Translations under genes and position numbers: made by a program
Part shown: positions 520-63,391 of the stretch, piece after piece
How positions within the stretch are numbered: position 1 is the stretch's first letter
How the letters are laid out: each line of letters starts with the position of its first letter
The notes under the pieces: model-generated
Databases searched by the model: none
What the model was told of the DNA's origin: nothing
What the model saw: the letters and a program-made list of their open reading frames with translations, nothing else
Source: Coffea arabica
Taxonomy: Eukaryota > Streptophyta > Magnoliopsida > Gentianales > Rubiaceae
NCBI RefSeq assembly: GCF_036785885.1
Contig: NC_092310.1
Span: 2,604,001 to 2,668,000, forward strand
Reading direction: 5' to 3'
DNA: 64,000 nt

Positions 520-1750
520 TTTTGGTGAAGCTGTAGACTTTGTAAGTCTCCATCAGAGATGTTACTGCAGGATGTCGTCGTTAATGCAATGGGATTTTTC
601 TTTCATTTTCTTTTTAGGGTGAGGGTTGGGGGGGGGGTTGGTTCTTGTTCTATTGCAACTGGTATGGCTTGGCTGGTCAAATGGCTTACTTGTTAACATT
701 TCTATGAGGTTTATGGCTCTTGACATTCTACATTATGACCCATTTTATATTGGGCTTTCTTTGTGAAGACCGGATTAGTCGTCAGTTGTACATGTATGAA
801 GTTGTACCTGAATCTGTATGTGTTGTGCTATTATTGATTTTGTTAATGGGTTATCAAGTGGTGCATCTGTTAAAAGCAGAAATTAGGATATTATTTATCA
901 AATTTTGAAATGCGTGTGTATGTGAGGTAGCATTTGTAGTTAGGACATGGTGAAAGAATAATGTAAAGAAAGCACCACTGACATGTTGCAATGTTCAAAA
1001 TCCTATCAGCTTTCTCAGTCTAAGAGTGGCTCTACATATCAGGTTTTTAGCACTATCCTACAAATTTTAACAGCAGTTTCTATATCTTAATGTTCTTTAC
1101 AGCGGTATCTCAGTTGATAGCAGACATAGATTCGCAGATTTTCTGGTTCATAGATGTGCAGTGGATGTGATGTAAAACGTTTAAATGATCATATGTTGAA
1201 AGATAGTACTAATGCTCCAGGGAAAAGAATAGCTTCTTCAACCGTGTCAGTTTGGAAAGGATGTTTTTACATTTTACTTTTATGTTTCTACTGTTAGTCA
1301 ATTGGTTTGCTAGTATAAAGTTTTTGTTTTCAAGTAATCTGTAGTCTTTTGTCAGAATGTGCAAAAGAAATCTAAAAATGTTTACACTAATTCCGGAACT
1401 ACAACATGCTGCTTTGACAAGATACAGGAATAGCAAGATATTGTTGGAAACAAGGTAACCCAGTAAACAGATAAGCCAACTTGCTACTTAATTTGGACTC
1501 TTCTTGGAGATTTATCCAGGAAAAAGTGCACCAGCAGATGCTAAAGGAACAAGTTCAGGACTTCATTAAACTGCTGAGCACCTTCAGGTGGATCATATAT
1601 GTTTTTACTTTCTCGAACCATGGTGTGGTTGCCGATTTTAAATTCTGTAATTGGCTTTTAGCAAGCAATTTGTAGCTGGTAGTCATATCTACTCTGATCC
1701 TCCATGTATTGCCCTGGTAAATTTGCTGTTTTACAACTTTTTCTTTCATG
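520..1750 (+). other. duplicated 3' flank of an F-box copy
   Basis: No gene is seen here. The stretch is colinear with 33240-34260, downstream of another decayed FBD copy: both carry a G-rich run followed by 'gacccatttta'-type text, a 'gatcatat.ttgaaag.tag' block and a 'tagttcagga' block near the end. It is therefore part of a duplicated unit larger than the gene. Open frames in it are not conserved in the other copy, which argues against coding. Confidence 0.5.
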
Positions 1751-2769
1751 AACTTTGACCTATAGCCTAAAGGGCCCTTTAATTGGAAGGATTTTGGGGA
1801 AAAAGCAGAGATTTAAAAAAAAAAGTGTCAAATTGGCTGTTGGAAAATTTCCACATGTTAAGGTTTTCAGAGTTTTAGAAAATTGGAGATAAGATTTTTG
1901 TGCTTTTAGAATGTTATGTTTTTTATTGATCAAATTCTTTTATTTTCTTTTTCTTTCATTTCTTTGGTATCTAGTGGTAGTTAGTAACACCATTAGTTTC
2001 TAGTTCGTTTAGTGAACGAGTTTTTAGATGAGTCGTTGTCTATTACATTGTTGTGCTTCTTTGCCCATGTCTATGGTTTACTCTGTTGTCGAGTACTCCG
2101 TTCTTTAGACACGAATTTTAGCATAGGAGCTGTAAAAAATTCTATATTGTTGAAATTCAGGATCCTTTGGATTAAGTTCTTAAGGTTCAAAATTGTACAA
2201 TCTTTTACACTGAAAATCAGTATCTTTCGGGGATCCGAATATCATGTTCAAATTTTTTCTTTGTGAGATTTGATACTAAATCTTGTGTTAGCAATAGCAG
2301 TAAAACTGAAAATCCCAGCATTCCACTGTTCTGATATATCAAATCCCTTCTTTTCAGAAATCCTGTGAACTCCTCGAGTCTTTATTTGCGGTCAAAAGTA
2401 TTTTTGTTCTTTTTATGTCCCTTAGGGAACAGAGGTTGGAGTATTCTTTTTCACTTTAACTTTGTACAGTAGCCTCAGAATTTGAGAGTTACTTTGAAGA
2501 CATCCTGATTTTGTGTTACTTGATTAGTTTTGCTTGGAGAGGCCTTCTAGTGTTTGAATGACTCTTTGAGTACCAGATCATCACTAGGTTATTATGATTG
2601 CAGCAATTTAGTCTGTTTCTTTGAGTATTAGTTTTTGTTATTTGGGGTGTATAGATGGAAGTTACCATGGATGTTGTCAATGGCTGATTCCTTTGGCAGT
2701 CACGAAGTAACTACATCACCTGTGCTGAATTTATTTTATTTTATTTTATGAATTAGTTACTTTTTGCAG

Positions 2770-3904
2770 GGTCAGTATTTAAGTTTAACGAAGTTAAAGT
2801 GCCTCAAGTTCCTAGTCTGTGCAATGAAGACCAGGTTTAGGAAGAGATGTGGAACTCAGGAAGTAAAAGTTGATAAGGGAACAGTGAAAGCATCAGGGAG
2901 CAATATGGATGTCGTTGCTTTGAAGGAAGATGTCAACAAGCAAGATGAGAGCATTGTCATCGAGGGAAAGGCTACTTCAGAGCCAAGTGAGCAGGAAGTG
3001 CATTACAAGGTCCAGGGAAATGAAGAAGCTGAAATGCGAAATGTTGCCGGAGAGGAGCAGAATCTTAATGTTACAAAGGAGCTGAAAAAGAGAAAGCGCA
3101 GTGTAGATGTCGAATTTGCTATCGTATCTCCTACTGACAAATGTTCATCCAGACTTTGCCCAAGGAAGGAGGTACCTTCATTCCAGATGGTGGATTTGAA
3201 TGAGAACAACATTGAAAGGATTGTGGGGATGAGAATAAAGGTTTACTGGCCAGAATCGCAAAAATGGTTTGCAGTAAGAATTAAATCCTTCAATAGGGAG
3301 AAGATGCTTCATACTGTAAACTATGATGATGGTGACGTAGAAGAGTTGCAGTTGAAGAAAGATAAATTTGAACTTGAGGTCAAGCCTAAAGATGGTTTTC
3401 ACATAAAGCAGAACTTCACTCTAGAAAAAGCAAGAAGGATGTCAGTGGTCATGTGGTTGGGAAAACAAGTATTAGCCAAGAAAGGATCTCGGTGGAGATG
3501 TGGTTGCCAATGTGAGTTTTAGCCAGGAGCATGCTAAGGTCAAGGATGAAGCAGAGATAGAAGGAGAAAGGAAGAAGGATCTCAGTGGTGATGTGGTTGC
3601 TAACAGGATTTATAACCAAAAGTATGATAAGGTGAAAAATAATAGCGAGATAGGAGAAAGGAAGAAGGATCTCGGTGGCGATGTGGTTTCCAACACAAGT
3701 TTTAGCCAGGAGTATGATAAGGTCAAGCATAATTCAGAGATAGGAGGACAGGGTCCTAAAACTGTAGTATCAAAGGAAGATATGGAATCTAATCCAGGGG
3801 AACAACAGCCAGCTGATAACAACAGTGAGAGAGATGAGAATCAGGTAGGTTCTGCAAGGCAAAATGCCAGGTTCGCTGATGTAGATGGAAGCAGAAAGCA
3901 TTGA
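2770..3904 (+). pseudogene. Tudor-domain (PDS5-like) gene fragment, frameshifted
   Basis: A splice-acceptor-like 'tttttgcag' precedes an open frame from 2770; the first in-frame ATG is at 2824. The frame runs to a stop at 3520-3522. Residues coded by about 3220-3380 form a Tudor fold signature (VGMRIKVYWPESQKWF, then YDDGDVEEL), closest to the C-terminal Tudor module of plant PDS5 cohesin-cofactor homologs, a family known to act on chromatin. Before it is a charged, low-complexity region with a KKRKRS basic patch. After it, a repeat array continues in a different frame up to 3904, so the coding sequence is broken by frame shifts near 3430 and 3480. No HEAT-repeat body of PDS5 is visible upstream. 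It may be a decayed fragment, or an exon of a gene whose splicing I cannot resolve. Function beyond the domain is not claimed. Confidence 0.55.
3429..3752 (+). repeat. degenerate coding tandem repeat, ~30 aa unit
   Basis: Successive copies begin with KKDLGGDVV-type text: a truncated one at 3432, then ~3478, 3572 and 3662. The last two units are 90 bp apart. Each reads KKDL.GDVV.N..., then a Q-(E/K)-(H/Y).KVK block and a (S/A)EIG ending. The first copy lacks its second half, and the junction with the second changes frame, so repeat slippage probably broke the host gene. Confidence 0.75.
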
Positions 3905-6360
3905 GTTGTCAGGAACAGACGTAAGTGACCACTAAATTATTGCTGAAACTAACTGAAAGAGGTTGAACACCATTTCTAGCAAGTAAGCCTGCTTCTGAAA
4001 ATTATGTCTTTACTCTTAAAGGATGCCCTTGCATGGTGGTTCTCATCCTGCTCTTTTCATTGCTTTATATTCATGCATTCAGTAAGTAATTTTACATGTA
4101 ACAATTATGCATATAACACTTATCCATTGATATCTAAAAATAGCTGGGGACTGTTTGGGTTTTTGTCTCTGTCCTGGACCAATGATGCTCAATCAATACT
4201 GATGAACAATTTTTAATTGTCATATAAATGTGTCTGTGTTTTGACAGACTTTTTGTTTTGCATTTCCTATGGTATGAAAGAGAAATGTCCATCCTTTCTC
4301 TAATAAAAGATAGGAATTGAATCGTGCTATGCTTGAGATGGGTAAAAACTGTAAATGAGGAAACTTACTGGGAGAGTGAAAGCTGAAACATTAGGTGACT
4401 ACCATCCTTATGAATCATTTTTGTCATCCTAAGATGTGTCCTTGTCCTAGCAGACTTGAGTTTTTGACAGATTGGCTGAAAATCAGCAGGAATTAGAGAA
4501 CAATTACCATGGTTGCCTCTTCCTACTATTTCAGATGAAAGAAAGACTAATTAATTATATTATAATTATTCCTGCCATCAGAATAGATGTAATCACCTGT
4601 GATTTTGTCATCACGGAATCCTCGGCCCCATTTTGTCCAAAGAGATAGGCTGTAGCAGTTGTGCTTTGTACTGCCTTCAACTGAATCTAGAAAATGGAGT
4701 TTTTCCCTTGGTTGGACCCTGATTGCTCAGACCGCTATTGGATCCTTCATCCTTAGAAGTGTCTATAGCCAACTGTCTGTTTCACCCATTACCATAGCTA
4801 GGTTGATCAGCAAGACAAAATGGTACGTTCATGTGCACCAACAAGAGATTTGATTAGTTCGATTTGTATGGTTCTGTAATTTTAAGTGAAAATTTCACAT
4901 GGAAATAGTATCTAAAGAATGCTGAAGGGCCAGAGCAAAGTGAAAGAATGGGGCAAGGTTTTGTCAACAAATAAGAGGAGTAAACTGACAAGCTTAATAT
5001 AGAAATTAAGAAAAGAAATGGAGATGCAAAACACCGTCGGATTGTTGATGCTTCTTTCTGGATCCTTTTGCTGTCATGAGTTATTGACAGCTGTAAGAGC
5101 CGGAGTCATCGACCAACTAATGCTGCGACTTCCAAAAATAGAATTTGCATTGTGTTTCCAATCTATGCAGAAAAGGAATCAAGGATATTAATGTAACCAA
5201 TTCTGGAAAATGCTACAGTAATTCAGGAAGTTATAATAAACACTTGTCATACACGTGTAGAGATACAATTTGTAAAGCCAAAAGTGAAAAAAGAATAAAG
5301 TTGGTCAAGGCTAGCACATGCAACATATTACAATGAAGCATGTTTCGTACTCAATGAAATTGTTGCCTATTTGTGGAACTGTCCACTCAATAACACAGTA
5401 CAACTTGTCTATCTGGATCAAAGGTTGTGTGGGAAATAAGAATGAGCCTTTATAAAATCTGTTCTCAACATGTCTGTTTCTTCATGAAGAACTTCCACGA
5501 TACAAATTTGGTAACTGCCAAGAGAATTACATTTGTCTACGGATAGCAAGCTTGTAGATTTCATGTAAAATATCTAGTTGACTGATCAAAATGGAATTTG
5601 GGCTACCAAGATCAAGTAGTTTTGACAAAGAAAACTGGTGAAATAAAAGCTGCATCATGACCCATTTATCGAATGAAATGCATGAGCTATATTGGCTTGC
5701 CTGATTCCTGGTCAGAAGTGAACATGTAATCTGAACGATGTGTTCACTTCCTATTTGTTTTTACCTGTGCCGTCCCCTCTCCCTGTGTTTTTTCCTCCCC
5801 CTTCTTAATTATTCCAATTTTTTTGTCTTGGTTGAGACTGAGGAATAAGACTAGTATTTGCATTTTCAAGTTCCCTATTCTTAATGGACACCAAAACTGT
5901 TCTGACTTGTGATTCTTAACATAGTTTATTCTTTACTCTTTCATGCGCGTTTTATCATGTTACTATAGAAATCAAATGCATTTGAAACAAGATTCTGATT
6001 AGGTTAGCAGCCCTTCACAATTTTTCTCATTCTCTATTGGCTGGAAGTTTCATAAATGTTTTCAACAATGTGTATTCTTATAGCAGCATTAAATAGAATT
6101 TATTTGGAAATCTGATAGAGTCCACGAACAACTACTTAGCTGAAAGAAAGTTTTCCATTTGTGATGAGCCTAGGGAACTGCAAGTTTGGAACTTAGGTTG
6201 CAGGACCTAATGTACTCCACAATGGCTTCAAATCTATCAGGAAATCTTTTAAGTATCTTGTGAGGAAAGAAAAGAAACGGATTGTCATGGTAAATTTTAC
6301 TGGTCCACTGATATAAAGTCATCTATGGTGTGATAAATAATCAAGATTACTTTTGACTTC
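3905..6360. other. no recognisable gene
   Basis: AT-rich sequence without a convincing reading frame, RNA gene or transposon end on either strand. It may include introns or UTR of the Tudor-like gene on its left, but I see no exon with recognisable protein similarity. Confidence 0.4.
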
Positions 6361-13657: not shown

Positions 13658-15385
13658 GTGTGCAACAATAAAATGTTCTTCAACTCCATGAAACCGGTAG
13701 ATGAAAGTACCGTTGTTTACACGAAAAATTCTACTACAATTCTAGTTCAAGGCATTAGAGAAGTAGAATTAAAATATACTTCCGGCAATGTTGTAACTTT
13801 GACAAATATGTTATATGTACCAAAAATTAGGAAGAACTTGGTGTCGGTTAATTTGTTAAATAAATTTGATTTTAAACTCGTATTTGAGACTGATAAATTT
13901 ATTTTGTCTAAGGGTGGTATGTTTGTAGGTAAAGGTTATCATTGCAATGGAATGTTTAAATTGAATGTACTTGCTATTAGAAATAATAAGATTGATATTA
14001 TTTTTGTGTATTTGGTTGAGTCTTCTTTTGGATTGTGGTATAATAGGATTGGCCATGTTAATTATAAAAGAATGCATGGAATGATAAGACTTGATTTGCA
14101 GCCATATTGTGATAAAATTGAAGGAAAATGCAAAACATGCATGCTAATGAAAATCACAAGAAATTCATTTCCTAAAGTTGAAAGATCATTTAAAATCTTG
14201 GATCTTATTCATAGCGATATGTGTGGCATTGCTACTTTGGGTGGTAAAAAATATTTTTTGACTTTTATTGATGATTATACTAGATATTGTCATGTTTACT
14301 TGTTACACTCAAAAAATGAAATAATGCAAAAATTTAGGACATACAAATCTGAAGTTGAACTTCATTGTGAAGCCTTTATCAAATGTCTAAGAACAGATAG
14401 AGGTAAAGAATATTATGATATTACCTATTTTGAATCTATTGGGATAAAACATGAGGTGACTACTCTTTATACACCACAACAAAATAGTGTAACCGAAAAG
14501 AAAAATCATGTATTGACGGCAATGATTAATGCACTTTTGTTAAAGTTTGGACAAAGTCAAAAATTTTGGGGTGAAACCTTATTAACGGCTTATTATATCC
14601 TAAATAGAATTCCTAATAAAAGGAGTTCTATAACCCTTATGAATTTTGGAATAAAAAGAAGCCGAACCTAAACTATTTGAGAGTTTGGGGTTGTCGAGCT
14701 GTTGTAAAACTCCTATAACTTAAGAAAAGGAAATTGAGAGAAAGAGGTATAGAGTGTATATTTTTAGGATATGCACAGAATAGCAAAGTATATAGGCTCA
14801 TGGTAATTGAACCTAATGATTCAATTTCGGTTAATACTATAATTGAATCTAGGGATGCTATTTTTGAAGAAAATAGGTTCACCTCTATAAAAGATGTTAC
14901 TCCAAAAGCAATAAACTGATAAAAGATGGTGAAATGAATCTATTGAATTGAGAAGGAGCAAAAGAGCTAGAAAGTCAAAAAACTTTGGTTCGGACTTCTA
15001 TATGTATCTAGTTGAAGGAACTAAAAATACAGTGAGCAATCAAATTCCATATTGCTTCAATACTGAGGCTAATTCCAAGACCTATGAAGAAACAATGAAA
15101 TCACAAGATGCTCCTTTTTGGAAGGAATCTATAAATGATGAGATTGACTCGATTATGGGTAATAAAACCTAGAAATTAGTAGACTTACCACCTGGTTCAA
15201 AATCAATTGCTTGTAAGTGGATCTTCAAGAAGAAAATGAAAATTGATGGAACTATTGATAAGTTCAAAATCAGATTGATTGCCAAAGGATTTACACAAAA
15301 GCATGGTGTGGACTATTTTGACACATATTCTCCAATAGCAAAAATTGCTACAATTGGAGTACTAATTATAACTTCTATCCAAAAT
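13658..15385 (+). pseudogene. copia integrase and 5' part of reverse transcriptase
   Basis: An open frame to 14671 covers the protease C-terminal part and the integrase. The zinc-binding H and C residues (GHVN..., CKTC) and the DDE acids are visible (IHSDMCG, LRTDRGKEY, NSVTEKKNH), so the catalytic triad seems kept although the last motif is altered from the usual NGVAER. Stops and shifts follow at 14671-15236. The reverse transcriptase begins near 15150 (CKWIFKKKMK, GVDYFDTYSPIAK) and is cut after 'TSIQNL' by the fold-back insertion. Confidence 0.8.
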
Positions 15386-15388
15386 CTA

Positions 15389-15514
15389 GGGCTTGTTTGG
15401 AAGTCCAAGTTTTTACCAAGTTATTATTATACTAGTTTTTTAACAACTTGTGCTACAGGAACCCCAAAAACTTATCAAAATTTTTTAACCTACACACTTA
15501 AAATATCCAAAACA
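15389..15514 (+). repeat. outer terminal inverted repeat, left
   Basis: About 125 bp matching the reverse complement of 17374-17499, including 'acaggaacccc', 'aacctacacactt' and the GGGC(T/C)TGTTTGGAAGT terminus. Confidence 0.85.
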
Positions 15515-16264
15515 CAAAAAAAAAACTCCCTTCTCCTTTTCTTCTTCTTCCTCCCCCACCACTACCTCCGTCAACTGCTTTGTCACCGGCCACCACCTCC
15601 GCCGCCGATCAAATTTTCCGATGTCGATTTTTTTTTCCCTTTTTCCCTCTCCCCCTTTTTTTTTTTTCCTTTTTCCCTTTTCCCCAGCAAGTTTTTTTTT
15701 TCTCTCTGCGTCTCCCCCCCTCCTCCCCCACCACCCTTCCCCTTCCCCTTTGGCCGATCTGGTCACGAGACCAAATCGCACCGAGGGAGGGTGGCGGGGA
15801 AAGGGGAGGACAGAGGGAAAGGGGGGATTTGCCCAAAAAAAAAAATTGCGGAGCCTGTTTTGAAGTTGCGGGGAATGGGAGGAAAGAGGACAGAGGCTTG
15901 CGGGGAAAGGGAGGAAAGAGGACAGAGGCCTATTTTGAAGTTGCGGGGGGAAGGGGGTGGCGGAGGAAGAAGGGGTGGCGGGGGAAGAGAGGATGGCGGG
16001 GGAAGAGGGGATGGCGGAAAGCGTGGGGAAGCGGGGTGAGGGGATGGCGGGGGGAGGGGGAATGCGGGGTGAGGGGGTCGCGGAGGAAGGGGGTGTGACC
16101 GGCAGAGGGGGAGAAGCAAAGCAGGGGGTGGCGGGAGGTGGCACTGCTGGAGGCAGAGGTAACGGGAAAGGGGAAGAAGAAGAAGAAAGAAAAGAGAAAG
16201 GAAAGAAAGAAAAAGAAAGAGAAAGAGAAAAAGAAAGAAAAAAAAAGAAAAGGAAAAAAAGTTT

Positions 16265-16548
16265 TTAACCCTACAAAAACTTCTACAAAATTTTTCTTCT
16301 TACAAAAAAATTTTTACAAAATTTTTTCAAAAACTTCTACAGTGTACTACAGTAAAGTTTTAGACAAACTCCCAAAAAACTTAGGGCCTGTTTGGAACCT
16401 GAGTTTTTTAGGAGTTTGTCTAAAACTTTATTGTAGTGCACTGTAGAAGTTTTTGAAAAAATTTTGTAGAAGTTTTTGTAAGGTGAAAATATTTTTTGCA
16501 GAAGTTTTTGTAAGATAAAAAATTTTGTAAAAGTTTTTGTAAGGTGAA
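16265..16548. repeat. central hairpin of the fold-back element
   Basis: The left arm 16265-16381 and right arm 16402-16548 are inverted copies ('cttctacagtg...aaaaaact' and 'agtttttta...cactgtagaag'). The right arm carries an additional repeat of 'gaagtttttgtaag'. The 20-nt spacer contains another GGGCCTGTTTGGAA terminus preceded by TTA, which suggests a head-to-head joining of two element copies with loss of one inner end. Confidence 0.8.
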
Positions 16549-17373
16549 TTTTTTTTCCTTTTTTTTTTCTTTCTTTCTCTTTCTTTTTCTTTTTTTCCTT
16601 TTTCTTTTTTTTTTCTTTCTCTTTCTTTTTCTTTTCTTTCCTCTCTTTCTTCTTCTTCTTCTTCTTCCTTCACGCTCCCGCCACCCCTCCCCTTCCCCTT
16701 CTCCTCTCCTCTGCATTTCCCCTGCTAGCCCCCTTCCCCCCTCCCCTCTGCACGCCACCCCCTCCCCCGCTGCCGCGCCACCCCTCCCTTTCCCCTTCTC
16801 CTCTTCTCTGCATTTTCCCCGCCAGCCCCCTTCCCCCTCCCCCTCCACTCTGCACGCCACCCCCTCCCCCCGCCAGCCCTTCCCCCTCTGCACGCCACCC
16901 CCTCCCCTCTGCACGCCACCCCCTCCCCCGCCTGCCCTTCCCTTTCCCCCGCTGCCCTGCCACCCCTTCCCCCCGCCACCTCCTCTGCCTTGCCCCTTCC
17001 CCTTCCCTCGCTGCCCTGCCAACCCCCTCCCCCCGCCACCTCCTCTGCCCTTCCCCCTCCCCTCTGCCCCGCCACCCCCCTCCCGTTTCCCCCTTCCCTG
17101 TTCCCTTTCCCGTTTCCCGCCACCCCCCTTCCCTGTTCCCCTATTCCCCCGTCACCGAGGAAAGTAACTGCTGCTGCTGCATAGGTTGGGGGAATTTGGC
17201 CAGGGAGGGGAGGGAAGGAGAGAGGGAGGGAGAAAGGAAGGGAAAAAAAATTTGGGAACGCTGGCGCCGGAATAAGTGGCCGGCGCCGGAAACGGCAGCG
17301 GAGGTGGTGGCCGGCGATGAAGGTACGGTGGATGGGGTGGGGGAAAAAGAAGAAGAAAGATAGAAGTTTTTTG

Positions 17374-17499
17374 AGTATTAGATATTTGAAGTGTGTAGGT
17401 TAAAAAATTTGATAAGTTTTTTTGGGTTCCTGTATCTAAAGTTGTTAAAAAACTTGTAGCTAAAAAACTTGGCCAAAAAACTCACTTCCAAACAGGCCC
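17374..17499 (-). repeat. outer terminal inverted repeat, right
   Basis: Reverse-complement partner of 15389-15514, ending in ACTTCCAAACAGGCCC before the CTA target duplicate. Confidence 0.85.
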
Positions 17500-17502
17500 C
17501 TA

Positions 17503-18715
17503 GTTATTCACCAAATGGATGTTAAAACAGTATTCTTGAATGGTGATTTGGATGAAGAAGTATATATGGAACAACTCAAAGGGTTCTAGTACCTAGTCAA
17601 GAGCATATGTTGTGTAAGCTTATAAACTTTTTATATGGACTAAAACAAGCACCGAATCAATACCATCAGAAATTTGATCAAGCTATTATTGCTAGTGGAT
17701 TCAAGATAAATGAATATGATAAATGCATTTATAGCAAGTTTAATGATGAAAAGGGTGTTATAATTTGTTTATATGTTAATGACATATTAATTTTTGGGAC
17801 TGACTTGGAACAAGTTAAAGTCACCAAAACTTTGCTTTCAAGCAAATTTGACATGAAAGACATGGATGAGGCATATGTCATTATTGGTATAAGAATCTTA
17901 AAAAATGATAACAATATAAAGTTATCTCAATCGTATTATATTGAAAAGATTCTTAACAAATTCAACCAAAGTGATTGTATTCCAGCCTCAACACCTTTGG
18001 ATCCCAAGATAAACTTTGTGAAAAATGAAGAGGATCCAAAATCTCAATTGGAATATGCCAAGATTATAGGGTGTTTAATGTATGCAATGACGTGTATTAG
18101 ATCTGATATTACATATGCAGTTGGTATATTGAGCAGATATACAAGCAACCCTACTAGGTTACATTGGCAAGGTGTAACTAAAATTTTAAAGTATTTAAAG
18201 GCCACTACGGCTATGGTATATGTTATACCGGTTATCCTTCAATTTTAGAAAGATTTTCAAATGCTAGTTGGATCACTAATAAAGATGATCACTCATCGAC
18301 AAGTGATTGGATCTTTATGTTTGGTGGAGGTGCAGTTTCTTAGGGTTCTAAGAAACAGATTTGTATTATCGATTCAACAATGGCAGCAAAGTTTATAGCA
18401 CTTGTTTCAGCTTGTAAAGAAGCTGAATGGCTACGTAATTTACTTTGTGATATACCATTATGGCCAATACCTTTATCACCTATCTCAATACATTGTGATA
18501 GTACAGCTACACTTGCTAAGGCATATAGTCAAGTAGATAATGGTAAGTCAAGACATAATTATGTCAAAGATTTGATCACAAATGGAGTCATATCAAATGA
18601 TTGTATGAGATCTAATGAAAATTTGAGTGATCCTTTGATAAAAGGGTTATCAAGGAATTTGATGTTAAGGACATCAAGGGGGATGGGTTTAAAGTCCAAA
18701 ATCCTTGATCACTAA
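17503..18715 (+). pseudogene. copia reverse transcriptase 3' part and RNase H
   Basis: The frame resumes after the insertion (HQMDVKTVFLNGDLDEEVYM), is open at 17607-18248, and continues as RNase H at 18380-18715 (ACKEAEWLRNLL, HCDSTATLAKA, KSRHNYVKD). The polymerase active-site box reads YVND at 17772-17783 where copia elements have YVDD, so the second catalytic aspartate is lost. Stops lie before 17607 and after 18248. After 18715 there is no recognisable polypurine tract or LTR. Confidence 0.8.
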
Positions 18716-19200
18716 TGGTGGAACCTCAATTCAAAGCTAGATACAATGTCTAATCTTGGATTCAATGAGTGAAAGTACATCATTCTAGTGGTTGGTGCAC
18801 TATGTGAAGTTAGACATCCCAATGTAGAATAGTGCATGTTATTCTCGCTAGTGCAAATGTAAGGGTGGGTGCTCCGAATAACTTGCTCGTTTGGGTTGCT
18901 AGTTTTTTGAAAAAAAAAAAAAGAACAAGAAACTTTTGGAATATTCCCTCAACACATTGATTTCGTTTTGCTAGTTTTTTGGAAAAGCTTTTCTGCCGCG
19001 TGCTCTCTCTTGCTTCTGCTATCTCTTGCCTTCATCGTCAGTTGTTATCTTTTATGTTTTGTGATAATAAATTAAAAAAATTATATTTTTGGGTTCAGGC
19101 TTGCTTATTGTAATCCCTGGAAGCCTTTCCAAATTACTCAGTGATCAAAAACATTAACCATCTTCTTGGGTTAGGAGAATAATAATCAAGCTGATTAACA

Positions 19201-20636
19201 ATGACTGATTATCATTGTCATCATCCTTTAGAGCCCAAGAGAGTTTTTAAAACCCCAGATGATTGGTTGAGTGCCCTTCCTGATGATATTCTTTTTTATA
19301 TTCTGTCATTTTTCCGTATTAGAGATGTTGCACGAACATCAGTACTGTCCACCAGGTGGAGATACCTTTTTGTTCGGCTTCCTGATGTTGATCTTACTTT
19401 CTCTAAAGCACATAAGTGTAATTTCATGGATAAGCATCCTACATTGTGCTATCATGCCAGAAATAAGAGTGACATGTTACTCTGTAAGTCCATAAAATTT
19501 ATCAATTTCGCCAATCGAGTAATTATGCTATGAAAAGGGGAATTTAAACTCGTTTTGAAGCCTGTTATCCCGAATATTAATATGGCAATCGACTCGTTGA
19601 TATTTGCTGCACTTTCGTGTAAACTCTAAGAACTTGATATATTTATTGGTAGCGATGAAATTGGAATTCATCTTGTGCTACAATATTCTCTTGCAGAACG
19701 TTAGTTACTTTGAAAGTAGCAAATGGTGAGGTCGATTTGGTTCTGCTAGATTCAGTTTATTTACCATAACTTAAGGTACTACACTTGCTTGAATTGGCGC
19801 TAGTAGATGCCGAGTCCATTTCCAGGCTTATGAAGGCTTGTCCTTTGCTCGAGGAACTGAAATTAACTTTATGATCTTCCAATTTGATTGAACATAGAGC
19901 AGTCGATTTATCTAGTCCTTCACTGAGAAAACTGATACTCAGTGGTTTCTTGGACTTGTGTTCTTTGGTTATCAAGTCAGAGAGTCTTGATTATCTGGAA
20001 TATTCTGCCTGTCAAAGGCAAAAGTTTAGTCTTAATGCCCCAAATCTCAAGTATTTTATCTACAATAGCTATGATAGCATAAACTTTGTTCAAAATTTGA
20101 AGTCTTTTGTAGAGGCCAAAATCAAGCTTCGCTTTGATGGATTGGCAAGTGACTTGTTATCATTGAATGATTTGCATGCTCTTGTTAACAGGCTACAAAG
20201 TGTGCAGTTACTTGATTTACATCATCCTAGTCTGCCGGTATGTGTACATTTGATTTCACTATTATTTTCTCATTTTTGTGGCTTTGTTATAGAATTTCAT
20301 AATGTATTTATTTCTTTCTCTGATTTGCATGAAAGATTTCTGTCGTGCTCATGATTTGTTGCCGACTTTCAATAATTTGACCACTCTGTTGCTGGAAGCT
20401 TTTCACCATGAACATGTTTACCATGCCTCTTTCTGGAAAGTGATGCCTTGCTTGCTCCAAAATGCCTCCAAAGTTGAAGTGCTGATCTTTGATCAAGTGA
20501 GTTATTCGAGCTTAATTTTGTCTATTTGAATGAATTACTTTGGATTTTGCTGTCCCTGATCTTCTTTGAATGTACAAGTTCGAAAAAACTTCAGATCGAC
20601 TAACGGATTTGAGTACATTTTGCCTGAGGCTATTCC
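19201..20636 (+). pseudogene. F-box/FBD/LRR pseudogene, 5' part (split by copia insertion)
   Basis: Closest paralogue of the intact gene at 36240, with the same start text MTDYHCHHP. The F-box is readable (DDWLSALPDDILFYILSFF...VLSTRWRYLFVRLPDVDL). The frame stops at 19531, where the paralogue has CGA (Arg) and this copy TGA, followed by a small deletion and more stops. Exon 1 would end at 20237, exon 2 spans 20336-20496, and exon 3 starts near 20580 with a changed acceptor (acaag for acag/g). Exon 3 is cut at 20636 by the minus-strand copia element and continues at 26109. Several independent lesions make it non-functional. Confidence 0.85.
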
Positions 20637-21278
20637 TGTTGGGGAAATCGGGTCATTTCCCACTCAAAAAATTCAACTAGTGATTTAAATCGATTCAATA
20701 ATTTTCAAGAAAGATCATTAAAATAATATCCCTAGATAGAATTATCATTCAAAATAAATTTCCAAGAAAGGCTGGAGGGGTCACAAGCAATCCCACTTAA
20801 AACCCAGTCTCCTATGACAGAATTTTTGTGCACGGTGTATTATCACAACTAAATCCGTATATACATAAACAATACGTACATATGAATAAAAATGCATCTA
20901 AATGAATCGTATAAAACACTACAAATAAACTCGACAAATATATTGAATACTGCACTACAATTGAAAAGAAACTACCAAATAAATGTGGAATAAATAAAAG
21001 AGATAAGGAAAAAACGCACCCGAAAAATTGATAATGGAATTCGGCCAATTTTACCTAATCTCCGAGCACTGCCAAAGCAGCCCGCTTTTATAATTTAGGA
21101 GAAGAAAAAATTACAAAAGAATTCTTTTTCAAATTCTTTGTTGGTGTACCTATTGGGAAGGCTTGAGAGTTAATTTATAACTCTCAAGCCTTGCACCTAC
21201 AACTAATCCCACCGATGTGGGATTTGGAAATTATGCCAAAAATTCAAAGTCAACAATTATTGGTTTTGAATTTCAACA
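20637..21278 (-). repeat. 3' LTR of the copia element
   Basis: 642 bp, starting TGTTGGGGAAATC and ending TTTCAACA in plus-strand reading. It matches 25485-26103 along its whole length. It carries an extra 'agttaatttataactctcaa' segment near 21170-21190 that is absent from the other LTR. Confidence 0.93.
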
Positions 21279-21298
21279 AATTTTCACCTTGGTATAAT
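21279..21298 (-). other. probable polypurine tract
   Basis: On the minus strand the bases just inside the 3' LTR read ccaaggtgaaaatt, the expected place for the plus-strand primer of reverse transcription. It is only moderately purine-rich. Confidence 0.5.
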
Positions 21299-21390
21299 TT
21301 CTAATCCCACCTCAAAAAATACAAACTTCTCACTCAAAAATAACAAATGGTCCTTGCGGTACTTCCAAATTTACGCCCTCAAGTGCCAAT

Positions 21391-24300
21391 TCAAATGTGC
21401 AGGATGTTGATCATGTTTAAACAATGTTCAAACTTGGACCTTGTGACCACTTTGGTCAACATATCTGCACAATTCTCTGTAATCCGAATTTTTTGGAGAA
21501 AAATCTCCTCTTCTTTGAGAATTTTTCGCACAAAGTGATAGCGAACATCAATGTGCTTCGTTCTTGCATGTAAGACCTGGTTCTTTGCTAAGTAAATAGC
21601 ACTCTAACTATCACAATACAGGTCAATGTGTTTTTGACCAACTCTCAAGTTTTCAAGCAATCTTTGAAGCCAAATTGCCTCCTTCACAGCTTCTGTAATC
21701 ATCATATACTCTATCTCTGTTGTAGACAAAGCCACCGTTGACTGCAAAGTAGACTTTCAACTAATTGGCGCCTTGGCAAATGTGAACAAATAGCTAGTTG
21801 TAGTATGTCGCTTATCGAAATTACCTGCATAGTCAAAGTCACAATATCGAACTACACATTGACCAAGTGATTCATCTCGCTTGAATACTAATCCAATATC
21901 TACAATATTTTGAATATACCGTAGAATCCATTTCACACTTGCCAATAACCCTTGCCCGGATCATGCATAAACCTACTTACCACATTAACTTCCTGTGAAA
22001 TGTCGGGTCTCGTACACACCATTGCATACATCAAGTTACCAACTGCATTAGTATACGGGACTTTCGCCATGTATGCTCGCTCTTCAACTGTTTTTGGAGA
22101 TAATAGGTTGCTAAGTTTGAAATGAGGAGCAAGCGGGGTACTTACAGGTTTTGAATCTCTATTCATACTAAAACGTTGTAGTACTTTGTTCAAATATTGC
22201 TTTTGTGTCAGACAAAACTTGCCTCTCGTTCTATCCCTGCTTATTTCCATGCCGAGAATCTTCTTGACTTCTCCCAAATCCTTCTTCTCGAACTCTTTAC
22301 TCAACTGAACCTTCAATTTGTCAATTTCAATTTAGCTCTTTAATGCTATTAGCATATCATCAATATACAAGAGTAAATAGATGTAGGAATCATCTCGTAA
22401 CTTATGCAAATACACATATTGATTGTATTTGTTTCTTGTATACTTCTGATCCATCATATACTGATCAAATTATTTGTACCATTGCCTCGGTGATTGCTTC
22501 AATCCATACAACGATTTGCTCAGTTTATAAATCCAATTCTTTTTACCGACAACTTTAAATCCATCTGGTTGAGACATGTAGATTTCATCCTTCAAGTTAC
22601 TGTGAAGAAACGCAGTCTTCACATCAAGTTGAGTTAGCTCCAAATTCAACTATGTTACCAAGGCCAACAAAATTCTAATAGAGAAATGTTTAACAACTGG
22701 AGAAAATACCTCATTATAATCAACTCCCTCCTTCTAAACGTAGCCTTTGGCCACCAATCTTGTCTTGTAGCGAACATCAATCTTGTCAAGAAATCTTTCT
22801 TTCTTATAAATATCCATTTGCATTCAATTACCTTCTTGCCCTTCGAGAGTTGTGTCAACTTTCACGTCTTATTTTTTTGAAGAGATTGTATCTTTTCTTC
22901 CATAGCATTCTTCCATCTATCATTTTCTGTACTTCGGACTGCTTCAAAAAAAGTGGATGGAACATCATCAACAATTGGAAATGCATAAGCCACCATGTTA
23001 GCAAAACGTGCAGGTTTTTGAATTTCTCGTCTTGGTCTATTGACGGCAATTGACTCTTGCTGCTGTTAAGGTTCTTGGGTAGAAACTTCTTCCTCATCTG
23101 ACTCCTCTTCTGCCATGGGAGAGTCACTGATGGTGCTGTTTACTGGGCTCACTACTATTTGCTCAAACTCCATCTGTTTCGGCGTACACTCCACCTGTTG
23201 CGGAGTACTACTGATTCCATCTTGTGTTACCTTATTTAACATGACAGATTTATCAAAGGTAATATTCCTGTTGATAATGGTTTTCTTTGTTTCTAGACAC
23301 CACAAACAATATTTCTTAACTCCAGCATTAAAACCCATAAAAGAGCCTTTTTTGCACGTGAATCCAAATTTGATTCATTTACATGATAATATGCAGTAGA
23401 ATAAAAAATACACAAAAAATTATAATATGTTGTAGGTTTTTCAGACTATACCTCTAATGAAATCTTGCCACCAATTGCAGATAATAGCACGTGATTGACG
23501 AGATATTGAGTATATGTCACAGTCTCAACCCAAAATTTTCTGCCTAACCCAGCATTAGACAACATGCAACGTACTTTCTTTACTAGTGTCTTGTTCATAC
23601 GCTCTGACACCCCATTCTGTTGCGGTGTTCTTCTAACTGTGAAGTGCCGAATTATGCCACACTCTTGGAATATCTTCTGGAAGGAATCACTCTTGTATTC
23701 TCCACCATTGTCTATTCGGAGAACTTTGATCTTTTTTGCCGTCTGATTTTCAACCTGAGCTTTTCATTTAAGGAAAACCCTAGCACATCATCCTTGTTCT
23801 TCATAATAAACACCCAAACTCTTTTGAAAAAATCATCAACAAAAGTGACAAAATAGTACCTGCCTCCAAAGGACAGAGTCTTAACAGGTCCCCACATATC
23901 TGAATGTACATAATCCAAAATACCTTTGGTATTATGGATGCCAGTACCAAATTTCATTTTTCTTTGTTTTCTCAGAACGCAATGCTTACAAAATTCTAAT
24001 TTGCAAGTTTTCGTACCTTTCAACAATCCTTACTTGGTAAGATTTTACAAGAATTTTTCACCAGTATGCCCCAATCGCATGTGTCACAACTTTGTTGCCT
24101 CCGCATCCTTTTTGCTACTGGAAGATGTTGCTGCTGCTGCTATCCCAACAATTGTACTACCTTGGTAGTAATACAGATTATTCTTCCTCACACCTTTCAA
24201 CATCACAAGTGCTCCCGAAATTACTTTAAAAATTTCATCTTGCATCTTCACTTCCAGGCCTTTTGATTCCAAGATTTCCAAGGAGATGAGATTCCTCTTC

Positions 24301-30570: not shown

Positions 30571-30616
30571 ATCTCTGGGAAACTTGAAAAAGGGAAAAGA
30601 AAAGATAAACGCCCAG

Positions 30617-32348
30617 ATGGCTGATCCTCCAGACAAGAAGGTGCTTAAGGCCACTCAAGAAGATGATGGTAACGTTGATAGGTTGAGTGCACTTCCGGAC
30701 TGTGTACTGCTCTATATCCTCTCACGTTTCTGTTTCTACACAAAAAGTGCTGCAGCCACCTCAGTATTGTCCAAAAGATGGAGAAACCTTTTCGTTTTGC
30801 TTCCTGAAATTGATCTATATTTCTTTGCGGACGAGGATGTTTCTGACCGTGATAGACTGTACTCAGATTTTATAAATTTCACAAACAGGGTGATCCGACA
30901 GCGAAATGAAGCTCCAATTAGAAGAATTCGACTCGTTCTGAGCCATTTTTCGGAAAGGCACCGGATGCTCTTTGAGTGGCTGTTGATATCTGTTGCTGCT
31001 GCATTTTCTTTGTCGATTATCCAAGAACTTGAGATTTTAATCGTGATTGATAGAACAACTAAGCCACTTTCAATATCTGTTCCGCCTGAAATTTTTACCT
31101 GTAAAACACTAGTTTCTTTATCACTAAAACTTGGGGTGTATTGGACGGTTCCGGATTTGGTGTGCTTGCCTAATCTCAAGGTACTTGGCTTGGACATGTT
31201 CAAATTGGTAGATGAAGCTTGTATTGGGAAGTTTCTTCAGGGTTGTCCTTTGCTTGAACAGTTGGAGTTATCTATGCGACCTTTCAACCATGAGCGTGAC
31301 GCTGACGAACATATTGAAGTCAATTTTTTTAAAATCTCAAGTCCTGTGTTAAAGAGAGTGATCCTCTGTTTCCAGGGAGTTGAATCCGAGTTTACTACTG
31401 TTGTTGAGTCCAACAGTCTTGAACACTTGAGTTTCTTACTTGATGGACAGCATAAAGTTGCTATAGATGCCCCAAATCTCAGGTCTTTGAAACTTCATGG
31501 CGATTTACTTGAAGTCGATATCATTCAAAACTTGATTTCTCTTGACAATGCATTACTGGAAATTGATTTTCTGTGTCATATGAGAACCAGAAGCGCCATA
31601 ATTTCATGCAGTGAGCGTGCTTTTAAGTTTTTTAGAGGATTGCAAAATGTGAAATCAATTTCTTTCTCAGAGAGCTTCCTTATTGTAAGTTTTATTTTAT
31701 TTATTTTTTATTTTCATACTTCTTCATCTGGCTTCATTTCAGAGCTTATCCTTCAAATTATAGTTGCAGAATTGAACGTTTATTCTTACTAAATTCTTCT
31801 CTATGAAGGCTCTCTATTTTTCTCAAAGGGTTTTGCCAACATTCAGAAACTTGATCAAATTACAGCTTGATCCTTTTGATTGCCCTGCTTTTCCTCGCGA
31901 ATGCATGTCTAGCATATTATCAAGCTTATTTGAAAGTTCTCCGAACCTTGAAGTGCTTATCTTCAGTGAAGTAAGTTACAATGGACACTTGTATTGCACG
32001 CTTATTTCAGTTGTATTATGCAGTCCCTTATGTACATCAAATGCACAGGTGTCCAAGAACTACTTTAGCAAAGATGAAGAACTTAATTCTGTTTTCCATG
32101 AGGCTCTTCCACTAGTGTTGGTTGAATGCCTTAAGGAAATAGAAATCGGAAATTTTAAAGGGGAGGAACATGAATTGAAGCTGGTAGAATTTTTTTTGGA
32201 GAGTGGGAAATCTTTAAAGAAGATGACTCTCTTTGGTTATGCTGGTGTGTCTTTATCGAAAGGTCTAGACAGGATATTGTCATTCAAAAAGTGCTCAGAC
32301 GATTGCCAGATTGTGTCAAAAGAGCAATGGAACTGGTTATTTCGCTGA
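30617..32348 (+). CDS. F-box/FBD/LRR-repeat protein (intact copy 1)
   Basis: Three exons, 30617-31684, 31809-31970 and 32049-32348, all joined in phase 0 by GT-AG introns, give 509 aa ending in a TGA. The first true ATG of the frame is at 30617 (MADPPDKKV); upstream in-frame codons are not ATG. Residues ~21-66 form the F-box (DRLSALPDCVLLYILSRF...VLSKRWRNLFVLLPEIDL), which in this family binds the SKP1-like subunit of an SCF E3 ligase. The middle is leucine-rich (LPNLKVLGLDMF, CPLLEQLELSM), the usual substrate-recognition part. The C-terminus is an FBD domain (LKEIEIGNFKGEEHELKLVEFFL, then RILSFKKCSDDCQIV). The target protein is unknown. It is one of two copies of the array without visible lesions. 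Confidence 0.88.
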
Positions 32349-35681: not shown

Positions 35682-36239
35682 TTAGGTAATGCAAGACTTG
35701 GGCCTTTTATTGGACATAGAAAATTTGGGCCCAAGACTCGCCCTTCTGTCAAAGTAAACGGGACGAAAAGAATAAAAAGAAGAAAAACCTAATACATTCT
35801 AGTATGGAAAGGGAAGCAAGCTTGAGAAATGTTGATGATTATCACAGAATATCTAGGCAAATATAAGCAAAACCCTGATTGTAGTTAGTTTTCTAATGTT
35901 TTTTTTTTCCCTTCTTCGTTTTGGGATAGTGTTTTGTTTTCGTTCTGCCTTCGTTTCTTTTTCTCTTTTATTTGAGCCATTGCAGATTATGATCTTGCTC
36001 CCCTGCTCATTTTGCTTCTGTGGCTTTATTTCCTAACATTCTCTCGGACACATTGATTTTGTTTTGTGAGTTTTTGGAAAAGGTTTCCTGCAACGCAGGT
36101 TCTGTTATGCTTCTGCCCTTCAGTCGTTTTGTTTTGTGCAGGCTCTCTAATTGTAATTCCTTGAACCCTTTCCGAGTTATTAGTGAAAAAAATTAACCAT
36201 CTTCTTGGGTTAGGAAAATAGTTATCAAGTCGATTAACG

Positions 36240-37968
36240 ATGACTGATCATGATTATGATCATCCTTCGGAACCCGAAAGGGCTTTTAGAAGAAAAACCA
36301 CCCCGGATGACAGATTGAGTGCCCTTCCTGATGACATTCTTCTTTATATTCTGTCATTTTCCCGTACTACAGATGCTGCAAGAACCTCAGTTCTGTCCAC
36401 CCGGTGGAGATACCTTTTTGTTCGGCTTCCTGATGTTGATCTTACTTTCTCTGGAGCATATATGTGTAATTTCATGGATAAGGGTCCTACATTGTGCTGT
36501 CATGCCAGAAATAAGCGTGACATGTTGCTCTGTAAGTCCATAAAATTTATCAATTTTGCCAATCGAGTGATTATGCTACGAAAAGGGGCTCCTATAAGAA
36601 AATTTAAACTCCGTTTGGCGTCCGTTATCCCAGGTAATAGCGTGACAATTGATTCGTTGATATTTGCTGCACTTTCGTGTACACTCCAAGAAGTTGATAT
36701 ATTTATTTATAGTGATAAAAATTGGAAATTAGCTCGTGCTGGATTATTCTCTTGCAAAACGTTAGTAACTTTGAAAGTAATCGGTGGTGAAGTGGATTTG
36801 GTTCTGCCAGATTCAGTTTATTTACCAAATCTTAAGGCACTGCACTTGCTTGAATTGGCACCAGTAGATGCTCAGTCCATTACTAGGCTTATCAACGCCT
36901 GTCCTTTGCTTGAAGAACTGGAGTTAGGTGTAGAATCACACAATTTGAGTAAAAGGCTTTTAACTAGAGCAGTCGATTTATCTAGTCCTTCACTGAAGAA
37001 ACTGATACTCAGTGGCCGCTTGGCTGGGTGTCCTTATGTTATTGAGTCAAAGAATCTTGAGTATTTGGAATATCGTGCCCGGCAAACGCAACAAATTAGT
37101 CTAGATGCCCCAAATGTTAAGTATTTGATCTACAGTAGTCTTGACAGTATAAACTTGATTCAAAACTTGAAGTCTCTTGTTGAAGCCAAAATCAGAGTTC
37201 ACTGCTCCAGTTATCCAACTGAAAGAGGCTTCTCATTGAATGATTTGCATGCTTTTGTTAATGGACTGGAAAGTGTGAAGTCACTCTATCTATATCATTC
37301 TAGTCTGCAGGTAAGTTTACATCTCATCCTACTATTGGTTTCTCGCTCTGGAGCTTTTCCTTTGAGTTGTAACAATATGGAACTTCATGTGTATTCACTT
37401 ACTTTTTCTGATTTGCTTGAAGGCTCTCTACCTTTGTCGTGAGTTGCTGCCGACTTTCAAAAATTTGACTGATCTGTCTCTTGATCCTTCCAATGATTTG
37501 TTTCTTACGAATTATGATCATACCTGTTTATGGAAAGTGTTACCTAGCTTACTGAAAAACGCCCCTAATCTTGAAGTTCTGATCTTTGATCAAGTGAGTT
37601 GTTTGCGAGCTTTTCTCTTATTGAACGAGTTACATTCGATTTTGTAGTCCCTAACTTTCTTCGAATTGGCACAGGTGTTTAGGAACAGCTTTAGTGCATC
37701 TGAGAAATTTGAGTGTGTTCTGCCAGAGGCTATTCCAATATGCTCCGTTCACCATCTTAAGGAGATGGAAATCAAAAAATTCGACGGCGAGGAACATGAA
37801 TTCGAGCTAGTACGGTACTTTTTGAAGAACGGGATTTCTTTGACAAAGATGACTCTTTGCGGAGTTGTGAAACCTTCATCAGAATGCTGCAGAAGGATAC
37901 TGTCATTCTGGAAATGCTCTGAGGATTGCCAAATTTTGTTCAAAGAACTCGATTCAAACAGGATTTGA
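36240..37968 (+). CDS. F-box/FBD/LRR-repeat protein (intact copy 2)
   Basis: Exons 36240-37310, 37423-37593 and 37675-37968, all phase 0 with GT-AG introns, code for 511 aa. The exon plan is the same as the gene at 30617, but this copy is closer in sequence to the pseudogene at 19201. The start ATG gives MTDHDYDHPSEPERAF. The F-box is at ~24-70 (DDRLSALPDDILLYILSFS...VLSTRWRYLFVRLPDVDL), followed by leucine-rich repeats (LPNLKALHLLEL, CPLLEELELGV), and a C-terminal FBD (LKEMEIKKFDGEEHEFELV, RRILSFWKCSEDCQI). By family knowledge it is an SCF substrate adaptor. Compared with copy 1 it has a longer acidic/His N-terminus and an extra loop after the F-box. No stop or splice lesion is seen. Confidence 0.9.
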
Positions 37969-44870: not shown

Positions 44871-45343
44871 TATAAGTAAAAAATGATAGAAGAAAATCCA
44901 ACATAACAATGGAATATAACATGAAGAAAGATGAGAGTTCAAAAATAGAGTTTTTAAAGTTTTAATCACCTACTTCCTCCGCTATTAGAAATTTTTTTTT
45001 AAAATGACATGAAGAAAAATAAGTTTAGTGAATTTTTTAATAAAAAAGTTGCTCGCAGTTATAAGGACTTTAAAATTACCGTGTCAATTAAGAAGCAATT
45101 TCTACATGACCATTTGAAGTGGCAACTTTAAAGCTACCATTTCTCAACGGACGCTCTCAAGAAGCAATATAATGCCGTTTCTAATTCTATACATTGGCCT
45201 GGTCCAAACGGTATGATTACCGGCTTACAATCACCCGCTGATCCAGAGCTGTTATTTGTGTTAGAACGTTTGATCTTTTCATCTTTTGTTAGAGCAACCA
45301 ATCTTTCTATTACACAACGGGGTATAATATCTATGTTACACAC

Positions 45344-45571
45344 TCTAATATGTCGATATCTGTCATCTTTAGAATTTTAATTAAGTTGAACTTTTGAGAA
45401 GGACATGATGTCTATTATAAGTGTTACATATTAGTGTGTAACACAAGACTCATAGTCTCTAATATGTCGATATCTGTCATCTTTATAATTTTAATTAAGT
45501 TGAACTTTTGAGAAGGACATGATGTCTATTATAGGTGTTACATACTAGTGTGTAACATAAGACTCATAGTC
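45344..45571 (+). repeat. 114-bp tandem duplication
   Basis: Two adjacent copies start 'tctaatatgtcgatatctg' at 45344 and 45458, with only a handful of differences. Each contains 'ttgagaaggacatgatg' and ends 'aagactcatagtc'. Non-coding. Confidence 0.9.
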
Positions 45572-45599
45572 ACTTATTAAACATCGTTGTGTGCATGTT

Positions 45600-58026: not shown

Positions 58027-58129
58027 TTTGTTATGAAGGCTGTTTAAGAAGGTGGTGCACGGAATCTGATTAGTGGTAAATGAAATTGGGTCCCTTGTGA
58101 CTTCCATTAAATAGGCAAGGTCCATATGG

Positions 58130-62485: not shown

Positions 62486-62659
62486 ATTATTATTAGAAAA
62501 GATTCCTCCCGTCCGCGCTTGCTTCCGCTCTTATTTTACAGTTTAAATCCTCTATCCGTCTATCCCGCTAATTTGTTTGAATTATCAATGTATCAATGTA
62601 CGTGACAACTATATAAACACAAAATAGAGAGGACAAATGGTGATTTTGGAACAAAGGAT

Positions 62660-63360
62660 TTGAAGGCTTATTTTTTTGCCTGATTTGTAATAAATAAATT
62701 CTTTTACAACTTTATCTATAGCAATCTTTTAAAAATATTCTAAATTTTTTTTAAAATACCCCAAAAATATGCAAACTTTTTTCTTTCCTTTCCTTCTTTT
62801 TTTTTCCTTCTCTCCTATCTCAACTCACCAGTCACCACTACTAGTCGATAACACCGCCGGTTGGCATCTTTTGTTTTTCCCCTCCCTATCCTTTCCCCTC
62901 TTCTCCTCTTTCCTCCCTTCTTTTCCTAACCCCATCTCCAACCCCTTCCCCTGATTGACGACTAGATCTCTTTGCATGCGATCAGATCTTTGGTTGCCTA
63001 CTAGGAAAAAGGGTAGGAGGATGGGATTAGGGAAAGTGGGACAAGGGAGAGAAGGAGGAGAAAGGAAAAGAGAGGAGGAGGATGAGGAGAGGGAAGGAGA
63101 GGAAACTTTTTTTTTTTTTTAAAAAAAAAAGGGGAAGGTATGGTGGCAATAGTGGGGGATAGGAGAGAGAGAGAGAGAAGGGGAAGGAAAAGCAGTGATG
63201 GTGTGGAGAGAAAGAAGAAGAAAGGAAAAAAAAAAGGAAAAGAAAATAAGAAAATTTTCTCCAAATTCTCTACTACATAAAAGTTTTTTTTTTTTTTTTT
63301 ATAAATTCTACAATAAGCGAAGTAAAGTTTATTACAAACTTTCAAAAAACGCACCGTCCA
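62660..63360. mobile_element. second fold-back element, same family type
   Basis: A pyrimidine-rich arm (62775-62950) and a purine-rich arm (63001-63250) face each other around 'gatctctttgcatgcgatc'. The outer parts share 'tttgtaataaa' in inverse order, and the right end (reversed TGGACGGTGCG...AGTTTGTAATAAACTTTA) resembles the central arm of the element at 15389-17499. Ends and target duplication are not defined. It ends about 30 bp from the UGT stop codon. Confidence 0.55.
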
Positions 63361-63391
63361 AAAAAAGACAAAATACAGTGTTTCAATCTCT

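Follow-up and report, generated by a model that had tools for sequence, protein, structure and literature searches.

In sum, our data point toward a nested pair of related transposons as the source of a long palindrome in Coffea arabica. The insertion in question occupies positions 15389-17499 of the window (the whole analyzed stretch of 64,000 nucleotides, contig NC_092310.1, forward-strand positions 2,604,001 to 2,668,000; coordinates below without a contig are those of the window), interrupts a Ty1/copia reverse transcriptase (RT), and is an imperfect inverted repeat along its full length of 2.1 kb, bordered by CTA on each side. We consider it likely (probability roughly 0.75) that a second unit of the family inserted in inverted orientation into a first unit near its inner terminus and that the displaced piece was lost later. 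An earlier note, made from the letters alone, had instead described one full-length fold-back element.

Symmetry of the insertion and its empty site

The symmetry extends through both halves. With the split at 16383/16384, alignment of the left half with the reverse complement of the right half gave 729/872 identical bases (gaps aside) and a score of 332.8; 200 shuffles made within 20-base windows averaged 119.2 (sd 9.5) and did not exceed 149.4. For the low-complexity middle taken by itself, the score was 125.5 compared to a mean of 63.9 and a maximum of 85.7 in 200 shuffles of the same kind, and therefore the purine/pyrimidine middle is in register beyond its local composition. The outer ends of the halves share 113 of 130 aligned bases and the inner ends 100 of 112, and the GGCCACCACCTCC block at 15586-15602 recurs at 17298-17314. 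Hence, the whole-length inverted repeat of the earlier note, with its inverted outer ends, recurring block, and mirrored pyrimidine and purine runs, was borne out. The central spacer is also real, but it measures 12 nt between the ungapped 93% arms (16306-16385 and 16398-16477) rather than the 20 nt given before. The halves are unequal in length (995 bp and 1116 bp), and their natural boundary is 16383/16384, where the terminus of the second unit starts; this terminus, GGGCCTGTTTGG at 16384-16395, is the one that had been suspected in the spacer.

If the insertion is left out, the flanking RT segment reads in one open frame, as the earlier note had stated. A flanking direct repeat pair that could represent the long terminal repeats of the copia element was looked for between 8 and 26 kb and was not found. 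To look for an empty site, as had been suggested, the flank 14700-15388 was searched in the same genome (241 first-look candidates, 40 scored, 41 matches listed). The second-best match among those listed is C2:2716455 (94%), at a similar coordinate on another large contig, and at C2:2716300-2721300 the window segments 14654-15389 and 17500-18600 are joined at a single CTAG. The C2 match continues unbroken from window 18000 to 21620 at 96%, beyond copia into the F-box region, and therefore the two loci are syntenic. Identity of the syntenic flanks is 714/735 and 1063/1098 without gaps (differences of 21 and 35, ~3%) and 94.2% and 95.4% with gaps (BLAST). The C2 locus is a true empty site: the copia copy is common to both contigs, and the insertion is present on one only. 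The CTA target-site duplication (TSD) claimed before is confirmed by CTA at both borders and by the single CTA kept on C2. Precise excision from C2 may be an alternative source of the empty locus; PIF/Harbinger elements are capable of it (PMC2836001).

Two units, single relatives, and a proposed nesting at one position

The halves are two units of one family (Table 1). A genome search with the 132-bp outer end, a check that the earlier note had proposed, returned 1423 first-look candidates, of which 40 were scored (matches of 91-100%, the window's own included); the 39 other copies were fetched from ~0.6 kb upstream to ~3.1 kb downstream of their start. Thirty-seven of the 39 are single units that begin with an outer end and close with an inner one, the last bases being altered in a few; the other two are L023, a head-to-tail dimer, and L032, which has no inner end in the fetched stretch. 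The 37 single units span 500 to 1303 bp, with the exception of L020 (2527 bp), which holds a foreign insertion. Within the stretches fetched, 0/39 copies are head-to-head palindromes, so the long inverted arms that define a foldback family are not a property of this one, and the single fold-back element of the earlier note finds no support here. Inverted outer ends do occur ~0.9 kb beyond L012 (73-75% match) and ~0.5 kb before L041 (77% match), joined in neither case to the inner end of that copy.

The order outer end, pyrimidine, purine, inner end was also seen in L020 and in a decayed unit at 62640-63370, and hence belongs to the unit and not to the palindrome. The ends of the decayed unit match at 64-69%; its alignment with unit 1 scores 69.4 (mean of 200 window shuffles, 25.3; maximum, 48.8), and that with reversed unit 1 scores 8.3, within the shuffles (maximum, 14.2). 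TSDs were recognizable in 29/38 flank pairs, L023 included, that match over 3 bp; 10 of these 29 are TTA/TAA, and the remainder are mostly other A+T-rich triplets. Across 30 sites (29 copies and the window), an extended target preference is apparent: an A-rich stretch, Y (27/30), the triplet, R (30/30), and T (26/30). The outer end of unit 1 is 98.5% identical to those of the unlinked copies L009-L011 and L019.

The relatives of unit 1 finish in AAAAAACT(N)AGGTTCCAAACAGGCCC and close variants. In the window, the inner end of unit 1 stops after AAAAAACTTA and is followed directly by GGGCCTGTTTGG of unit 2; the TTA before this junction lies 16 bp ahead of the expected inner terminus. The left junction had three exact matches in the genome, and a longer pattern had four at ≤3 mismatches, all in the same three loci; these counts are lower bounds. 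The two loci outside the window, L051 and L052, are different composites. In L052, a unit B lies in direct orientation in a unit A, with TCA on both sides and the last 16 bp of A retained behind B. In L051, a unit D lies inverted in a unit C, again between TCA triplets and with the displaced 16 bp still present, and C itself lies inverted at the same spot in a unit E, where the left TSD copy is eroded; E is bordered by TAT. Thus, nesting in L051 (C11:12205500-12213500, 1610-5290) is three units deep and occurred twice at one position near the inner end. The break in L023 is in direct orientation and falls no more than about 3 bases away from this spot, with TTA on both outer sides and the displaced piece absent. 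When the genome was searched for right-hand junctions that retain the displaced piece, two places emerged, one in L051 and a new one, L055 (C2:52699500-52707000, 3616-5200). In L055, a unit comes after a 16-bp fragment of the end of another unit; this is a probable further nested case. The tally is six (window, L023, L052, two in L051, and probable L055), three inverted and three direct, the orientation in L055 being deduced. As a rough yardstick, ~0.002 events would be expected by chance for 1423 units hitting a given position in 1423 units in a 1.198-Gb genome, where 1423 is a first-look count and the target preference would raise the value. As a control, a junction at a different high-scoring target of the outer end was searched for; it had no match in the genome.

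In our model, unit 1 (15389-16383) would have entered the copia RT first, duplicating CTA. Unit 2 (16384-17499) would then have entered unit 1 in the opposite orientation at the triplet 16 bp from the inner terminus, a target that resembles the family preference (A-run, Y, 3-bp TSD, RTTT). With the units facing one another, a single inverted repeat of 2.1 kb would result from two elements that are not themselves palindromic. The 16 bp cut off from the end of unit 1 would have lain, together with one TSD copy, between unit 2 and the right CTA and may later have been lost via 14-bp direct repeats. The last 14 bases of the outer end of unit 2 are common to the displaced piece as it is found in the close relative L018, and a 19-bp deletion between such repeats would leave exactly the right border observed. 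Because L051 and L052 have the same break point together with TSDs and the 16 bp, unit 2 most likely inserted into unit 1. Of the earlier suggestion that two copies fused head to head, the two head-to-head copies are confirmed, but nested self-insertion, as in these two loci, describes their origin better than fusion.

Several observations weigh against this model. The displaced 16 bp are absent at the window locus, where nesting is read from the left junction and from the other loci. The best outer-end match of unit 2 among the sampled copies is only 91.3%, in a comparison biased by the fact that these copies were selected by the end of unit 1. In L055, the triplets (TCA/TGA) do not match and the body of the outer unit is not recognizable. 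Furthermore, all nested loci except L023 came from searches for such junctions, and therefore no excess can be demonstrated from them alone; among the 38 other copies fetched without this bias (L023 apart), no family unit was nested in the sampled unit, although L024 has another unit that adjoins the outer part of a neighboring copy. Judged by a matrix of the 30 sites, the target triplet is one of the better sites of the unit, but others score higher: its rank is 4 to 19 among 962-1285 positions in seven of eight units and 70 among 1083 in the eighth, where the position one base over ranks first. The junction control covered one site only, and the junction counts are raw numbers of places.

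Facing complete termini, as would arise from adjacent insertion, also exist elsewhere in the genome (two places at 3 mismatches), and they speak for a different order of events. In that case, the target of unit 2 would have been the CTA next to unit 1; the termini then facing each other would have folded into a short hairpin, and unit 1 would have lost its terminus through a 19-bp deletion at TAGG microhomology. Relatives such as L018 carry TAGG in their inner terminus, and it is found again at the border between TSD and unit; a single deletion would suffice. Against this course of events, the same break point in L051 and L052, with TSDs and the displaced 16 bp, marks insertion inside a unit, and a deletion ending at exactly that position would be mere coincidence; we regard it as unlikely. 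In an observation of its own, the facing related termini lie around ATA at C4:2428711 and C15:2454064, and one of them reads GGTCC, which may indicate a sister family.

Nested insertion at this site has further to be weighed against the arrival of the composite as one mobile body with the outer ends as its terminal inverted repeats. Neither outer end is truncated, and the whole is surrounded by a single CTA duplication. The divergence of the arms is compatible with a composite built elsewhere: they differ at 143/872 aligned bases (16%) and the outer ends alone at 17/130, compared to ~3% in the syntenic flanks, so that the arms were already different before insertion, with the caveat that simple-sequence parts may change faster than copia. 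A second copy with this arrangement, however, was found neither among the 39 outer-end copies nor at the four junction places in three loci (lower bounds), of which the other two loci are different composites, and this makes a mobile fold-back very improbable. The divergence also argues strongly against a recent inverted duplication. A snap-back, that is, inverted duplication of one unit by template switching at or after insertion, would explain the palindromic center and the truncated inner end, but the outer end of unit 1 is closer to unlinked copies (98.5%) than to its partner (89.2%). This candidate is already contradicted by the difference between arms and flanks, could be rescued only by strong later hypermutation of one arm, and is hardly conceivable.

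Table 1. Features of the insertion, its host gene, and a related unit, in window coordinates
Feature	Position	Strand	Basis or remark
5' part of interrupted Ty1/copia RT (RVT_2)	15173..15385	+	Pfam PF07727, E 2.8e-14
Left copy of TSD, CTA	15386..15388	.	sequence; single CTA at empty syntenic site
Unit 1, non-autonomous PIF/Harbinger copy, outer to inner end	15389..16383	+	last 16 bp (GGTTCCAAACAGGCCC-type inner terminus) absent
Outer end of unit 1, pairing with 17367-17499	15389..15521	+	inverted repeat; 113/130 aligned identical
Pyrimidine-rich part of unit 1, then purine-rich to about 16265	15520..15760	+	sequence, skew profile
Central near-palindrome from two inner ends	16306..16477	.	80-nt arms, 93% complementary, 12-nt spacer
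Putative target of unit 2 within unit 1, TTA	16381..16383	.	relatives; nested loci L051, L052
Unit 2, complete, same family, inverted; inner end 16384, outer end 17499	16384..17499	-	both termini GGGCCTGTTTGG
Outer end of unit 2	17367..17499	-	inverted repeat; alignment
Right copy of TSD, CTA	17500..17502	.	sequence; empty syntenic site
3' part of interrupted Ty1/copia RT (RVT_2)	17556..18248	+	Pfam PF07727, E 1.7e-28
Decayed single unit, same family (outer end, pyrimidine, purine, inner end)	62640..63370	+	borders approximate

Affiliation with PIF/Harbinger and other features of the window

The genome has at least 193 DDE_Tnp_4 matches, and one group of transposase loci is linked to the family by its termini. 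Of four transposase loci with differing open-frame lengths, L056 ends in the unit's inner end and L057-L059 (0/3) do not. Four further loci of the L056 kind align to it over at least 1.4 kb and all bear the inner end, which in this group was thus present in 5/5 fetched loci at 86-89% over 82-98 bp. The outer end was found at 1/5 of these loci in the stretch fetched, upstream in the C10 copy (81% over 94 bp); this transposase copy (C10:18006593-18014302) has CAA at both sides. A Myb/SANT open reading frame and a DDE domain were identified by Pfam in 2/2 transposase copies tested. To judge from these termini and coding relatives, both units are non-autonomous PIF/Harbinger (Tourist-like) elements.

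The DDE transposase and the first open reading frame of Myb/SANT type in the coding relatives are as in PIF/Harbinger. Termini of PePIF1, DcMaster-a, and OsPIF2 are tabulated in PMC6327408; those of our family resemble the termini of PePIF1 and DcMaster-a, and termini of GGGYCTGTTTGG type with a 3-bp TSD are shared with PIF/Harbinger, Tourist-like copies as described there. An extended target preference is likewise described for PIF and mPing (PMC2836001). A possible difference from PIF/Harbinger, where TWA is the preferred TSD, is that TTA/TAA makes up 10/29 of the matching pairs. Most copies of PePIF1 that resemble miniature inverted-repeat transposable elements (MITEs) are 200-300 bp long (PMC6327408), whereas the units here measure ~0.5-1.3 kb and have a G+C-rich pyrimidine/purine middle. 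Viral contigs had 0 matches to the terminus pattern, and a literature search for the terminus sequence gave nothing on transposons, judged by title and the start of the abstract.

The foreign insertion in L020 (~810-2215 of the oriented copy, ~1.4 kb) has inverted CAATGTTTT/AAAACATTG borders and GAACCGG-rich ends and possibly represents another DNA transposon family. In the window itself, GGGACTGTTTGG at 4147-4158 is one mismatch off the family terminus. The region 19093-44868 consists of repeated stretches with F-box/FBD-LRR genes (30572-32348 and 36222-37442, Pfam), in diverged copies of both orientations. Tandem duplications are found at 45343-45577 (offset 114 bp, copies 95% alike) and at 47100-47306 (offset 102 bp, 99%), and a minus-strand frame at 57514-58167 contains the N-terminal domain of 2-oxoglutarate-dependent dioxygenases (PF14226).

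Predicted hairpin and comparison with known systems

Folding of 15389-17499 as RNA, which the earlier note had called for, gave a predicted energy of -1114 kcal/mol, with 667/995 bases of the left arm paired with the right arm. With the left arm reversed, the energy was -782 kcal/mol, and eight window shuffles of the pair had a mean of -815. Per nucleotide, the pair reaches -0.53, compared to -0.33 to -0.37 for units 1 and 2 folded separately and for five single relatives, all of which are barely more stable than their own shuffles. Hence, the palindrome is a new property of the pair. A transcript is predicted to fold over its whole length, as is expected of a hairpin locus, and formation of a long double-stranded RNA from the pair is physically plausible according to this model. 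It is imaginable that a recurrent self-target 16 bp inside the inner terminus, hit head to head in about half of the cases seen, yields small-RNA hairpins and thereby limits the family, but we consider this chain of events quite improbable. If true, amplification of the family would itself make the inverted repeats that shut it down.

Nested MITE multimers with an insertion preference were reportedly described by Jiang and Wessler in 2001, the members being inserted in one another at a preferred target. The family described here is similar in that its members lie inside each other at a preferred target; it differs in that one position, 16 bp off one terminus, is used recurrently and that the head-to-head cases result in a full-length inverted repeat. 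The event is of a known kind, the nesting of a known transposon type, at a recurrent position in the element. Foldback elements such as Tm1 and Galileo are long-armed as elements. The insertion shares the long inverted arms with them, but the single unit is not long-armed and the arms come from two copies. The locus illustrates how a long palindrome that resembles a new fold-back class can come from ordinary transposons.

Self-insertion is also known from mPing, for which it was proposed (PMC10288884) to explain the rarer reinsertion of longer elements in yeast; in contrast to what is described there, one position is hit repeatedly in the coffee family. The window provides a locus whose age is bounded by its presence on only one of the two syntenic contigs and which has a site of repeated self-insertion. 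In Mu killer, transposon sequence lies in inverted arrangement and can form a long hairpin RNA. The pair resembles it in the inverted arrangement and the predicted hairpin, although its arms are just 84% alike. Together with L051, this locus gives direct ground for asking whether nested transposons commonly give rise to hairpin RNAs that silence their family.
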